Positions 3,205 through 7,692 of a stretch of DNA of 27,126 bases are shown here, in pieces. This DNA comes from a virus. Under the pieces are notes generated by a model that was not told the DNA's origin, did not search any database, and was given only the letters and a program-made list of their open reading frames with translations. Within the stretch, counting starts at the first letter, position 1, and every line of letters starts with the position of its first letter. Made by a program: the position numbers and the translations under genes. Location: positions 1-27,126 of IMG/VR virus record IMGVR_UViG_3300046011_012714; one strand, 5' to 3'.

Positions 3205-3747
3205 TTAAAAGGGCAATACCTTAAATTTGCGCAATACTTTAATAGTGTAATACAGTGCAAGTGCTATGTTTAAGCCCACCAGCCAATACACCCAACGGGG
3301 TACGTAAGGCACAGGGGTGGTTTTAAAGAGGCTGTCTTTATGCTCTTTGTATAGTTTGGTGTACCTGCTTATATACTGGTCTTTGGCATACACCAGTTGC
3401 TCCAGCTCGTTACAATTGGCTTTGGCTTTTAGCACCCCATCAACAAGGCTTATACTTATTGATGCGTTGCGGTGGCCTATGGCTTTTGTTTGTGGTATTT
3501 CTACCGGCTGCACGTAGTAGGTATCGCGCTCTACAATAACGGGCGGGCAATGCACCAGCGACATTATATAGGCGCTATCGGCAGGTACAACAACGGGTAT
3601 AGCCCTAACCACCTCGCGCACTATGGTATGGGTACTATCGTGCTTTATTTCTGATGTGTTTTGCTGTACCTTAGTTTTACACGCCGTTGCCATGGCTGCT
3701 ATAAGCAACCCTAACAATAACGCGTATCTAACATGGAACTTTAACAC
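3205..3747 (-). CDS. Probable unimolecular spanin (u-spanin)
   Basis: A 180-residue protein with two anchors. An N-terminal signal peptide (residues 1-22, hydrophobic 9-20) leads to Cys23 in the context MATAC, consistent with a lipoprotein signal. A C-terminal membrane helix lies at about residues 152-169 (WVYWLVGLNIALALYY), followed by a short basic tail. Between them is a polar domain with a helical Lys/Tyr-rich stretch at about 113-140 (ELEQLVYAKDQYISRYTKLY). An outer-membrane lipid anchor plus an inner-membrane helix in one chain is the architecture of u-spanins (as in phage T1), which fuse the two membranes in the last step of lysis. The endolysin gene is two genes upstream in the same operon, which supports a lysis role. 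The lipobox is not canonical at -3, so an ordinary lipoprotein remains possible. Confidence 0.6.
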   Translation of the reverse strand: MLKFHVRYALLLGLLIAAMATACKTKVQQNTSEIKHDSTHTIVREVVRAIPVVVPADSAYIMSLVHCPPVIVERDTYYVQPVEIPQTKAIGHRNASISISLVDGVLKAKANCNELEQLVYAKDQYISRYTKLYKEHKDSLFKTTPVPYVPRWVYWLVGLNIALALYYTIKVLRKFKVLPF

Positions 3748-3762
3748 AGCAGCAGAATGGGT

Positions 3763-4104
3763 TTAGTCTAGTTGAACTACAGCGCCAACAGCCTCAAAAA
3801 TGGCTTTGGTTTTGTTAAATACAAACGCCTGGCATTTGGTTTTACCGTTGGCGTTGGTAATTACCGGGGCGTTAATGCCTGTACCAAAGGTTAAGGTTTC
3901 GGTACCTGCACCAAGGCTGCTAACGTGTAACTCTGCGCCATCTTCAAGCTCAGGGTCAATAGTTAGGTTAAGGGTAGCGTTGCCGGTAATGGCAAGGTTT
4001 AAAATGGTTTTGTTGTTTTTTGGCGTATAGGCAATAGAGCCTGTTACTGTGCTAATGGTTGGGCTATCTGCGGCAGCAAAAGGCCACTTGTATACTTCAG
4101 ACAT
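3763..4104 (-). CDS. Hypothetical protein between endolysin and spanin genes
   Basis: A 113-residue protein (MSEVYKWPFAAADSPTISTV...). It has no signal peptide or membrane segment and is rich in Thr, Asn and Ala, with alternating beta-strand pattern (TGSIAYTP, TILNLAITGNATLNLTI, ETLTFGTGIN, KAIFEAVGAVVQLD). That pattern suggests a small beta-sandwich, which could be a virion decoration or a small tail or head protein, but no family is recognised. It lies in the minus-strand late operon, 15 bases before the spanin-like gene and 30 bases after the endolysin gene. Confidence 0.65.
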   Translation of the reverse strand: MSEVYKWPFAAADSPTISTVTGSIAYTPKNNKTILNLAITGNATLNLTIDPELEDGAELHVSSLGAGTETLTFGTGINAPVITNANGKTKCQAFVFNKTKAIFEAVGAVVQLD

Positions 4105-4134: not shown

Positions 4135-4710
4135 TTAATTAAAGAGGTTGTATTTTGGGTAACCAGGTACGCCTTTTGTTTTTTTCATTACAATGCCGCG
4201 TTGGTTGCCCTGTAAATCGTAGCTAATGTGTACCCATTGTGGGTTTTCGGGTGTGCCATGCTCCAGTATCAACTGGTCAAACTTTAAAGTACCCTCATCA
4301 TGCATAAGCTTTATGGCTGCCACTAACAAGTCGTTACGCTCTACGCCATCAACAAACAAATCAATATCGGCGGCTTCGCCTTTAATGTGTTGGCTTGTAG
4401 GCTTGCTACCTACCGCGGTGTTAACTGCGGGGCTGCGGTAACCGCTGCGCACCTTTATGTAGCTATCGCTACCGTACAGTTGGTCGCACTTATTGGCAAT
4501 TGGCTGTAGGGTATTTTTGCAAAGCTGGGTAAGGGCATCAACTATAATATCCGATGGTTGGTACTGGGCTTTGTATTTAGCCAACATGTCGGCTTTAATA
4601 TTGGCACCTGTGCCTTCCTTTTCAGCAACCTTTTTATACCCTTCGGCGGTGGCGCTAAAAAGCATCTCGCCCAGGGTAAAATTATCGGTTAGCTTATCGG
4701 TAAGTTGCAT
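4135..4710 (-). CDS. Endolysin, peptidase M15 family
   Basis: A 191-residue protein of the M15 (D-Ala-D-Ala carboxypeptidase/endopeptidase) family, expected to cut peptidoglycan stem peptides at lysis. Visible signatures are the Arg-containing RSGYRSPAVN at residues 88-97, the zinc motif SQHIKGEAADID with His108 and Asp115, and the third zinc ligand in QWVHIS (His161), with a Glu at 150 (LILEHG). There is no signal peptide, so release should depend on a holin. The N-terminus (NFTLGEMLFSATAE) is the usual lead-in for phage M15A endolysins in this phylum. It begins 2 bases after the stop of the upstream Lys/Glu-rich gene and is followed by the spanin candidate, giving a lysis cluster inside the structural genes. 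Confidence 0.85.
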   Translation of the reverse strand: MQLTDKLTDNFTLGEMLFSATAEGYKKVAEKEGTGANIKADMLAKYKAQYQPSDIIVDALTQLCKNTLQPIANKCDQLYGSDSYIKVRSGYRSPAVNTAVGSKPTSQHIKGEAADIDLFVDGVERNDLLVAAIKLMHDEGTLKFDQLILEHGTPENPQWVHISYDLQGNQRGIVMKKTKGVPGYPKYNLFN

Positions 4711-5140: not shown

Positions 5141-6280
5141 TTAAACTACTGTTTCAACAATTGGCACAACACCCTCTGCACGCAGCGTAATACCGCCACA
5201 ACGTACTGATGTGCTGGCAATATCGGCTTGGAATAGTGGGTCGTTTGCTACAGCAAACACTTCTACCTGCCCTAAAGCGCGGGCCACTTGGTCTTGCTGC
5301 CAGCAAATACCTGCGCTGTTATCGGTAGTGGCTGTTGCAAAGCTGCTTTCAGTATAGTCTTTTTGTACAGGTGTGGCGGTGTTATCGTATACGCCTACTT
5401 TAGAGCGTTTCATAATGGTAAAACCAGCTAAGAATGGCAACTGGCCTGTTTCCATATTTACAAGGCGGTTGTAGTCGGGTGCAGCTACAGCGCTGTCTTC
5501 TTGTAAGTCTAAAATCATACGCGGGGTAAGCAATGCGTAACGGCCCTCTTCAGGTATATCGGCATTGTCCATTATCTCTTGTACAGAGCGTAAATCAGCA
5601 AGGGTAAGTTTTTTACGGTTACCTGATGCGCCTGCGGCAGATGCTGTGCGGGTTGCACCTGTAGTACGCACCGGGGCAGCGTATGCACCATCTAACCACT
5701 CGTTTATAACAATCTCGGCAGATGCTTTCTCTTGTGTGTTGCGGTGGTTTTTCAATACTGCATCAAGGTGGTCGTAGTTAAGCTCGTTAAAGTCTTTTAC
5801 GGTAATAACCTCGGGCTTGGTAGCGCTGTAATGTAAAGTATAGCTAAGGTCTGTAGCTTCGCGATGCTCTACACTTAGTGGGAACACGCTAGGGTTTTTA
5901 ACAGACGATGCCGAGTTGGTAAACTTTGGTATGTGTACGGTAGAGCCGCCTGTTACCTCGCTGGTATGGTCAACCGACTTCATTAAGAAGCTATTGTTAG
6001 GCCATAGTTTTTCAATAAGGCGGGTAATAAACAAATCAACCGTGTAGGTGGTGTATGCTAAACCGCTACGGGCATTAAAGTTTACGCGGGCGCTTGGTTT
6101 TACTGCACAAATTGCCAATATAATAGCCACATAAGCAGCATACAACATTAAAGCAACAGATGCACCTTTGGTAGGCTCGGCACCAATTAAATTGGCAGTA
6201 ACCATGCCACTAAATGCCATTAAAAGCAAGGTGGCAATTAGCCGGGTTATTAGTTCAAAAAACGATGTTATGTGTTTCAT
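5141..6280 (-). CDS. Major capsid protein with N-terminal membrane-spanning extension
   Basis: A 379-residue protein. From about residue 70 on it reads like an HK97-fold major capsid protein of Bacteroidota phages: RSGLAYTTYTVDLFITRLIE, then a GGSTVHIPKF strand, a long helix-loop region and a C-terminus with PLFQADIASTSVRCGGITLR. It sits after the protease/scaffold gene, the Mu gpT position. The N-terminal 60 residues are unexpected: two hydrophobic helices at about 11-30 (ITRLIATLLLMAFSGMVTAN) and 38-60 (ASVALMLYAAYVAIILAICA) are in frame with the capsid domain. No in-frame ATG, GTG or TTG that I can see lies between the second helix and the capsid domain; the last available start (Met45) still includes most of helix 2. 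Removal by the prohead protease is possible. Confidence 0.8.
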   Translation of the reverse strand: MKHITSFFELITRLIATLLLMAFSGMVTANLIGAEPTKGASVALMLYAAYVAIILAICAVKPSARVNFNARSGLAYTTYTVDLFITRLIEKLWPNNSFLMKSVDHTSEVTGGSTVHIPKFTNSASSVKNPSVFPLSVEHREATDLSYTLHYSATKPEVITVKDFNELNYDHLDAVLKNHRNTQEKASAEIVINEWLDGAYAAPVRTTGATRTASAAGASGNRKKLTLADLRSVQEIMDNADIPEEGRYALLTPRMILDLQEDSAVAAPDYNRLVNMETGQLPFLAGFTIMKRSKVGVYDNTATPVQKDYTESSFATATTDNSAGICWQQDQVARALGQVEVFAVANDPLFQADIASTSVRCGGITLRAEGVVPIVETVV

Positions 6281-6306
6281 CTTTTTAATTATTCGGGTTT
6301 AGTTAT

Positions 6307-6528
6307 TTACTTTTTTGTTTTTCGGTTTAGGTACCAGTCTTTAATGCGTTTGTAACTCTCGTTAACTATTAAGCCGCCTATGGCTGCAACGCCGCCTGTT
6401 GCCAGTGTACTTAGTAGTCCGTGGCCCTCTATTACCACTGTGCCAATTACAACCCCTTTTATAAGGCCCGTACTTTTGGCTACTAAGCCTGCTGCGCCAC
6501 TAAGGGCTGTGGCTTGTAAGTCTGTCAC
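6307..6528 (-). CDS. Small membrane protein, holin candidate
   Basis: A 73-residue protein (MTDLQATALSGAAGLVAKST...) with one or two glycine-rich hydrophobic segments at about 19-33 (TGLIKGVVIGTVVIE) and 38-55 (LLSTLATGGVAAIGGLIV), and a strongly basic C-terminus (NRKTKK). Size, hydrophobic pattern and charged tail fit a small holin, which would release the cytoplasmic M15 endolysin. It lies between the protease/scaffold and capsid genes, 6 bases after the former. No holin family motif is recognised, so the function is inferred from shape only. Confidence 0.5.
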   Translation of the reverse strand: MTDLQATALSGAAGLVAKSTGLIKGVVIGTVVIEGHGLLSTLATGGVAAIGGLIVNESYKRIKDWYLNRKTKK

Positions 6529-6534
6529 GGTTTA

Positions 6535-7008
6535 CTAGCCTTTGTATTCGCCGTAAAACTTGCCGTGCTTTTCTTTGTACTTAGCCTGGAAGGTTGGCTC
6601 GTCCAACTCTTTCAAGGTCATAAGCTTGTTAGCGGCTGCCAAATCTTCGTAAGACATTGCCGCAAGGGTTTCTAACTCGCCAGCACCGGTGCTGCCGCCA
6701 CCTGCTTTAATTTGTTGGGTTAGCGATACATGCTTTTGCATGTTGGCTACCATTGTTTTAACAGCGGCCAAAGGCATGTCTTTTACAATGGCTTTCATTT
6801 CGGCTGTTTTGCCAGGCAACAGTTTACCTTCAACAGCAGCAGTATCAATCAAGCTTTCCTTTTCAGCAGCTTCGGCGGTGGCTTGAGCAACTTTCATCTC
6901 AGCCAATTGGCTAATAGCTGTTTGACCTTCGGCTACCTTTGCAAGCACTTGCTCGTCGGTAGCGTTTTCATCAAGGTTTAAAGTCTTTTTAAATTCAGTT
7001 GTGAACAT
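6535..7008 (-). CDS. Nested scaffold protein from internal start (Mu gpZ-like)
   Basis: In Mu the scaffold is also made alone from an in-frame start inside gene I. Here an internal ATG at 7008-7006 (residue 229 of the protease frame) begins MFTTEFKKTLNLDENATDEQ, exactly at the boundary between a Pro/Thr-rich linker (LSPKPTETNEP) and the helical scaffold domain, and would give 157 residues. The domain boundary and Met position are visible; separate expression is inferred from the Mu precedent. Confidence 0.4.
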   Translation of the reverse strand: MFTTEFKKTLNLDENATDEQVLAKVAEGQTAISQLAEMKVAQATAEAAEKESLIDTAAVEGKLLPGKTAEMKAIVKDMPLAAVKTMVANMQKHVSLTQQIKAGGGSTGAGELETLAAMSYEDLAAANKLMTLKELDEPTFQAKYKEKHGKFYGEYKG

Positions 7009-7692
7009 AGGTTCGTTGGTTTCGGTTGGTTTTGGGGAAAGCATTACCTTGTTAAGGGCAGTTGCAAGCATTTCGGGCGTTTCGCCGTCTTCAATTTCTA
7101 TAGCTGATGCGCTGGCGGGTACCGCAGGGCTTTCAATAATCTCGGTAATAATGCCATGTGCCAGGCAATACTCAGCGCCAAAAAAATGGTCGCTGCCATC
7201 AAACCAATTGGTTTTAACAAACTCTACGGTTTGGCCAGTACGCTCGGCGTAAATGTTAATAATTGACTCTTCTAAAGATGCAAGGCCGGCAGCCTCGCTT
7301 TTAATATCGTCGGCATTGCCAACAACTCCAATTTTAGGGCGGTGTACATGGAACTGGCTAAGCCTGTCCATTTTGCGCTTTTCGCCTGCCAAAAACAGCA
7401 TACCCGACATGCTGCCAGCTAAACCTTCTATAATAGTAATGGGCTTAGCGGCTAAAATGGCGTTGTAGGCTGGAATGCCCTCGTATATAGAACCGCCATA
7501 AGTAGTGCGGAATATTATTGCCGGGTTACTTTCAGTAAGGGCCAGTTGCTCTACGCGCTGGGTTAAGGCATCAGCCTCGTTACCCTCTGCACCAATATTG
7601 CCCGTTACCACCATAGCCATAAGAGCCATTTTGGCAGACAATTTTTTGTATTTAGCGACTGTTGACAAATGCCTTTTGTAAAAGTATGCCAC
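6535..7692 (-). CDS. Prohead protease (ClpP-like) with C-terminal scaffold domain (Mu gpI-like)
   Basis: A 385-residue protein in two parts. Residues about 27-190 form a ClpP-type serine protease: a first strand VVTGNIG, TTYGGSIYEGIPAYNAI, a nucleophile loop GLAGSMSGMLFLAG with Ser96 the likely catalytic Ser, and a His in QFHVHRP (His115 or His117). Residues about 229-385 are helical and charged, as expected for a head scaffold. This matches Mu gene I, whose C-terminal half is the scaffold. The protease trims scaffold and capsid during head maturation. The longest frame begins at GTG 7692, but ATG codons at 7629 and 7620 (residues 22 and 25), just before the first strand, are at least as likely as starts. 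It is the first gene of the leftward late unit. Confidence 0.8.
   Translation of the reverse strand: MAYFYKRHLSTVAKYKKLSAKMALMAMVVTGNIGAEGNEADALTQRVEQLALTESNPAIIFRTTYGGSIYEGIPAYNAILAAKPITIIEGLAGSMSGMLFLAGEKRKMDRLSQFHVHRPKIGVVGNADDIKSEAAGLASLEESIINIYAERTGQTVEFVKTNWFDGSDHFFGAEYCLAHGIITEIIESPAVPASASAIEIEDGETPEMLATALNKVMLSPKPTETNEPMFTTEFKKTLNLDENATDEQVLAKVAEGQTAISQLAEMKVAQATAEAAEKESLIDTAAVEGKLLPGKTAEMKAIVKDMPLAAVKTMVANMQKHVSLTQQIKAGGGSTGAGELETLAAMSYEDLAAANKLMTLKELDEPTFQAKYKEKHGKFYGEYKG

Follow-up and report, generated by a model that had tools for sequence, protein, structure and literature searches.

A predicted membrane hairpin ahead of the HK97-fold shell domain in capsid proteins of Bacteroidota phages

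Introduction

HK97-type shell proteins are textbook soluble proteins. In the virus record analyzed here over its whole length of 27,126 bases (the window), the gene of the major capsid protein (MCP) opens with two hydrophobic segments in frame with the shell domain. This raises the question of whether such an extension is really part of the capsid protein and what it could do during head formation. The initial annotation of the locus proposed that the capsid is made on a membrane anchor that a ClpP-like protease later cuts off, or that a holin-like module is fused to the capsid gene. It suggested predicting the structure and comparing the N-termini of homologous capsids.

Two kinds of head assembly are relevant to this question. 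The HK97 MCP carries an N-terminal scaffold domain, and mcpN forms coiled-coil towers (PMC10275583). T4 heads begin on the cytoplasmic face of the inner membrane and their proteolytic maturation includes release of the prohead; proheads of SPN3US remain attached to the membrane when proteolysis is blocked (PMC9026906). In the open-access literature, we found no earlier report of membrane segments in tailed-phage capsid proteins. The extension is easily missed because capsids are recognized by their shell domain alone.

Architecture of the window capsid protein

The gene, which sits between the protease and the tail genes in a window that also contains a Mu-type portal, encodes an HK97-fold major capsid protein (Table 1). 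Residues 97-374 match Phage_capsid_2 with 34.3 bits (cut-off 25), and the protein matches PHROG 267, "major head protein", with an E-value of 4.8e-22. An AlphaFold2 model computed from a 31-row alignment (mean pLDDT 81.9) has an HK97-type shell. Among solved capsids, LME-1 gives the highest score (Z 16.7, 248 residues, rmsd 4.0), and HK97 itself (1ohg) reaches a Z of 14.4. The HK97-fold core aligns with these capsids from about residue 74 or 94 to residue 379, and the N-arm helix spans residues 76-90. Hence, the capsid domain does lie in frame behind the helices, as initially annotated, but it starts nearer residue 76 than the proposed residue 70.

Table 1. Features of the MCP locus of the window (positions in the window)
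Feature	Positions	Strand	Evidence or remarks
Major capsid protein (MCP) gene	5141..6280	-	379 aa, N-terminal two-helix hydrophobic extension
A-rich leader	6281..6300	-	60% A, A at -3 and -6; precedes ATG 6278-6280
Hydrophobic helix 1, residues 2-32	6185..6277	-	AlphaFold2, hydropathy
Hydrophobic helix 2, residues 36-60	6101..6175	-	AlphaFold2, hydropathy
Basic disordered linker, residues 61-77	6050..6100	-	pLDDT <50; 3' end is the junction, start point of extension-free relatives
HK97-fold shell domain and N-arm helix, residues 76-379	5144..6055	-	AlphaFold2, structural alignment
TTG, codon 83	6032..6034	-	Only possible start codon (ATG/GTG/TTG) between helix 2 and the shell body; context unfavorable for initiation
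Small hydrophobic protein	6307..6528	-	73 aa, GTG start, basic C-terminus; between protease and MCP; no family match
ClpP-type head maturation protease (likely), Mu gpI-like C-terminal part	6535..7692	-	CLP_protease E 1.1e-19; Mu-like_Pro E 5.9e-6

The two membrane-type helices of the initial annotation are recovered both in the model, which places them ahead of a poorly ordered linker, and in the hydropathy profile. In the Kyte-Doolittle 19-residue average, two blocks exceed 1.6, with peaks of 2.01 and 2.64 in the stretches that begin at residues 14 and 42, respectively; when the whole protein was shuffled 2000 times, the latter maximum was reached 5 times. Whole-model structure searches with the window MCP and with a relative (L071) aligned mostly the shell domain, and a known fold for the helices is neither established nor excluded by them.

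Occurrence of the extension among related capsids

Used as a single query, the window MCP retrieved no relative from genome or virus contigs. Alignment-based scans of both kinds of contigs yielded 160 loci, and 166 MCPs were classed: these loci, the window and five phage records. If translation starts at the first ATG of each open frame (set by hand for L008), an assumption with which the leader data described below agree, 64 of the MCPs have a hydrophobic extension of 35-90 residues, mostly 46-61, and 102 have none. Reduction at 85% identity leaves 119 MCPs, of which 51 are extended and 68 short, so that about four in ten of the sampled related Bacteroidota phage capsids carry the extension. 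The short MCPs begin at the point that corresponds to the end of the extension, mostly with MA[IVL]Q. The initial annotation held that homologues starting at about residue 65-75 would speak against the extension; the 68 short MCPs fit this description, yet they do not refute it since the other 51 share the extension.

The extension is present in the Flavobacterium phages lotta8 and FPSV-S1 and in the Winogradskyella phage Peternella, and the MCP of pippi8-1 matches over the same length as the extended Flavobacterium MCPs. Phage pippi8-1 is infectious, with plaques and 63-nm heads. As independent relatives have the same architecture and cultured infectious flavophages (pippi8/lotta8, FPSV-S1, Peternella) are among them, a sequencing error is ruled out as the cause. 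The label "structural protein" in pippi8 and lotta8 derives from sequence similarity, and in the consulted passages of the Peternella paper no capsid proteomics was seen. The hankyphage paper includes mass spectrometry; the hankyphage capsid is not linked here to the MCP family.

The Winoviridae (pippi8, lotta8, FPSV-S1 and Peternella) resemble the window in having an extended MCP, a ClpP-type protease and a DUF2586 sheath. A quickly computed tree of the shell domain places the window MCP, on a long branch, together with those of lotta8 and FPSV-S1 (96% SH-aLRT). However, it is only about 26-29% identical to them and has a longer extension, which includes a basic linker of 17 residues. Phages of Porphyromonas gingivalis and the Elizabethkingia phage TCUEAP3 share the MCP family and the head gene order with the window, but their MCPs start with MAI[QE]KEIW and are devoid of the hydrophobic extension. 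On the same quick tree, the distribution of the extension needs 18 changes, at least 14 of them forced by well supported branches. The extension was therefore gained or lost many times.

Two extended MCPs have an overlong C-terminus (L110:5995-7482, about 496 residues; L055:5848-7119, about 424 residues), possibly containing C-terminal fusion domains. The Dysgonomonas genome of L110 contains a second, more distant MCP (L177:1317-2442), which, like that of Peternella, has a hydrophobic N-terminus of its own (MKQLFKIFACLVFLVACVVAMFGEP...). Hydrophobic N-termini of MCPs thus reach beyond the aligned family.

Charge pattern and predicted topology

A Kyte-Doolittle average of at least 1.63 is found in all 51 extended MCPs, and 9% of long control ORFs have such a peak in their first 75 residues. 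The extensions are almost free of charge, with means of 2.9 K+R and 0.45 D+E. Their positive residues are unevenly distributed, with a mean of 2.06 on the N-terminal side of helix 1, 0.04 in the intervening loop and 0.71 behind helix 2. Before helix 1, the mean D+E is 0.02, versus 0.69 in residues 2-8 of control N-termini, a slightly different stretch. This pattern fits an N-in/C-in hairpin with both ends predicted to be cytoplasmic, even if A-rich start codons may exaggerate the positive charge of the N-terminus. The extensions thus combine two hydrophobic helices with positive-inside charges, as is the case for membrane-anchored hairpins. An Asn in helix 1 is conserved in 33 of the 51, and the main type of extension, an FN motif module, has one invariant Gly.

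Translation of the extension

In Flavobacterium, initiation relies on A at positions -3, -6, -12, and -13 together with little secondary structure (PMC6847099). The leader of the first ATG contains 52.5% A in extended genes (n = 51) and 52.6% in extension-free genes (n = 60). At the internal Met of extended genes (n = 43), the value is 17% (Mann-Whitney p 2.5e-14 versus the first ATG), and it is 27% at control in-frame ATGs. An A occupies position -6 in 51% of the first ATGs, 70% of the extension-free starts, 7% of the internal Met codons, and 32% of the controls; at -3, the internal Met codons have 21% and the controls 33%. The mean MFE is -1.2 for first ATGs and for extension-free starts, -10.5 for the internal Met and -6.9 for the controls. 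With a leader low in A and strongly folded, the internal Met is thus unlike a start codon.

The first-ATG leader of the window resembles the starts of the 50 other extended and of the 60 extension-free MCP genes. The initial annotation saw no start codon between helix 2 and the capsid domain. There is indeed no ATG or GTG, but a TTG, unmentioned there, occurs at codon 83; it lies inside the N-arm helix, and its leader is 30% A and carries a G both at -3 and at -6. Given the A-rich leader of the first ATG and the poor leaders of the internal Met and TTG codons, the extension is very probably translated from the first ATG. The internal Met is nonetheless kept in 43 of the 51 extended MCPs and is missing at the junction in eight. 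Its retention would be explained either as a relic of gain and loss or by a constraint on a cleavage site.

Selection and kinship of the extension

In the closest pairs (L044-L055, L023-L078, L027-L072, and L089-L096), dN/dS of the extension is about 0.1-0.2, a value that rests on few pairs because dS is saturated in most others. For instance, the extension has a dS of 0.86 and a dN of 0.112 in L044-L055, and a dS of 1.19 and a dN of 0.115 in L023-L078. In many pairs, dN is higher in the extension than in the shell domain. Judging from these ratios, the extension is under purifying selection in its close pairs.

A leave-one-out HMM of the main type gives 17-59 bits for 42 of the 51 extensions, and a maximum of 8.8 bits on 831 other membrane-type N-termini. 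The extension of the window scores 5.1 bits, within this control range, and those of L042, L020, L029, L041, and L116 also score at background level. In position, number of helices and charge pattern, the window extension is like the main type; by sequence comparison, it is not demonstrably homologous to it. It is possible that hairpins were taken up convergently. As a separate gene, the module turned up neither in the loci nor in 395 Bacteroidota genomes; the same search did recover it on MCPs in two genomes known to hold it. Within this sample, the extension is found only on MCPs.

The junction and the head protease

Extended MCPs share a motif at the junction, with G at -4 in 36 of 51, L at -2 in 27, M at 0 in 43, A at +1 in 44 and Q at +3 in 41. 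In the model of L071, the junction (residues 45-52) is the least ordered part. In structural alignment, its counterpart is residue 170 in T5 prohead II and lies close to residue 119 in HK97 prohead II. Both of these are cleaved prohead shells, and the extension thus occupies the position of the Delta domain, the cleavable scaffold domain of HK97 and T5. As expected of MCPs with a cleaved Delta domain, an extra part is present on the N-terminal side of the N-arm. The window MCP thus fits an HK97-fold capsid protein with a membrane-type hairpin at the Delta-domain position. The likeness to the MCPs of HK97 and T5 includes the fold, the place of this part before the N-arm and an adjoining head protease gene. 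However, their Delta domains are soluble and helical, whereas the part found here is a hydrophobic two-helix hairpin, presumed to be cleaved, in which the character of a soluble helical or coiled-coil scaffold is absent.

The initial annotation gave the ClpP-type protease, which is likely the maturation enzyme, a special role in removing the anchor. Among the 50 non-redundant extended MCPs whose neighboring protease could be typed as ClpP or S78, 38 adjoin an S78-type and 12 a ClpP-type enzyme. Presence of the extension is not associated with the type of protease (Fisher p = 0.30). The junction motif is alike beside both types, with G at -4 in nine of the 12 ClpP cases and in 27 of the 38 S78 cases. 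A coupling of the extension to the ClpP-type protease was therefore rejected. The rest of the proposal agrees better with the data, as a membrane-type N-terminus placed in this way fits an anchor that is later removed.

A possible assembly route and its alternatives

According to the computations, the extension is a translated, hydrophobic part of capsids alone, under constraint in relatives and located at the Delta-domain position. From this we infer that it inserts into the membrane, that heads assemble there and that the anchor is cleaved off. This is the most economical reading, since it unites an N-terminal scaffold-like part as in HK97 with head assembly on the membrane as in T4. The MCP precursor would begin with a two-helix membrane hairpin, and its N-terminus, linker and shell domain would all be on the cytoplasmic side of the inner membrane. 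Standing in for the cleavable scaffold domain, the anchor would gather subunits on the membrane and let head assembly begin at this site. A cut in the flexible linker would follow, at or near the old capsid start (in relatives, where G-x-[LF]-x precedes M-A-[IV]-Q; in the window, around residues 72-78). It would probably be made by the head maturation protease of the phage itself and free a normal HK97-type head. We give this anchored precursor, with head assembly at the membrane and removal of the anchor at maturation, a probability of about one half. The broader proposal, that a large part of the Bacteroidota tailed phages build their heads on the host inner membrane from subunits anchored by a hairpin that replaces the Delta domain, and which may be of more than one origin, is put forward tentatively.

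Removal of the extension would leave the capsid of the extension-free relatives, which fits anchoring followed by removal. On the other hand, the same junction motif stands beside two unrelated types of protease and may thus be a structural linker rather than a cleavage signal. Moreover, 68 of the 119 MCPs do without the extension, often beside the same type of protease, which speaks against this route. In HK97-type heads, the N-terminus of the MCP faces the interior of the prohead. A fully anchored shell is therefore hard to picture, and anchoring would have to last only briefly, involve the first subunits alone or end with early cleavage. As proposed, the route resembles those of T4 and SPN3US in that assembly occurs on the cytoplasmic face of the inner membrane with release by proteolysis (PMC9026906), but in T4 the portal protein gp20 meets the membrane through YidC, whereas here the shell protein itself would bear the membrane segment. 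If true, a hairpin that is selected and repeatedly gained or lost would give membranes a part in shell formation that goes well beyond the contact made by the T4 portal. Phages pippi8-1 and Peternella would then be cultured systems for studying why the membrane is needed by some close relatives but not by others.

The extension could also be a Delta-like scaffold that packs inside the prohead, never enters a membrane and is then degraded. Its position agrees with this idea, the mcpN scaffold of HK97 is helical and internal (PMC10275583), and the Asn of helix 1 and the invariant Gly of the main type suggest specific packing. However, a soluble scaffold with so little charge would be expected to aggregate, and the charge pattern is that of an N-in/C-in hairpin. 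In addition, the adjoining gene already provides a protease whose C-terminal part resembles Mu gpI, and in Mu this part of gpI is the scaffold part. We regard an internal scaffold as unlikely, though to be taken seriously. Retention of the extension on the mature MCP, where it would line the head interior and, for example, bind lipids or act in DNA delivery, is quite improbable: the end of the extension coincides with the start of extension-free relatives, the models show a disordered junction, and several hundred hydrophobic hairpins are hard to fit in a DNA-filled head. It draws on cleavage being so far a step that we infer, and on the eight extended MCPs without a Met at the junction.

One gene could also make two proteins if translation from the first ATG gave a membrane-bound product and translation from the internal Met a soluble shell protein. 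Internal initiation in a head gene has a precedent in T4 gp21 (PMC9026906), and the old-start Met is mostly kept, although this could be due to the repeated gain and loss of the extension. The context of the internal ATG, worse than that of control in-frame ATGs at -6, at -3 and in folding, contradicts the Flavobacterium determinants (PMC6847099), and the window has only its TTG in a poor context. Such a dual start appears distinctly improbable. Fusion of a holin or another lysis gene to the capsid gene, the second reading of the initial annotation, is very improbable. Two-helix hairpins do look like small holins, and the window extension weakly matches Phage_holin_3_5 (PF16085; E 0.012). This match remains below the cut-off of 27 bits (16.2 bits for the extension, 11.2 for the whole protein), no match to a holin family exceeds its cut-off, and one of nine other extensions matches a holin family, with an E-value of 0.16. 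Besides, the module was never seen free-standing in the loci or genomes searched, and the window has a separate small membrane gene (6307-6528). Finally, it is scarcely credible that a wrong start or a sequence error joined unrelated hydrophobic codons to the capsid frame. The later start of the short relatives would agree with such an artefact, but it is already contradicted by the 51 non-redundant extended MCPs, the purifying selection indicated by dN/dS, the A-rich leaders of the early ATGs, and the cultured phages.

Neighboring genes

The product of the small membrane gene between protease and MCP is possibly a holin or an assembly partner. Similar-looking small membrane ORFs occupy this place in L008, L020, L042, and L166, whose MCPs are all extended, with extensions weakly related or unrelated to the main type.

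Elsewhere in the window, positions 3763-4104 (minus strand) encode a 113-residue protein (TGNATLNLTI...GAELHVS...LTFGTGI). Small proteins similar to it by eye lie between the protease and the MCP in L053, L056, L065, L071, L073, L081, L121, and L124; the family possibly comprises head decoration or fibre proteins that change place. The 180-residue protein encoded at 3205-3747 (minus strand) is spanin-like: its N-terminus is hydrophobic and, with its Cys (MATAC), lipoprotein-like, and its C-terminal helix is hydrophobic too. It neighbors an M15 peptidase endolysin (4135-4710).
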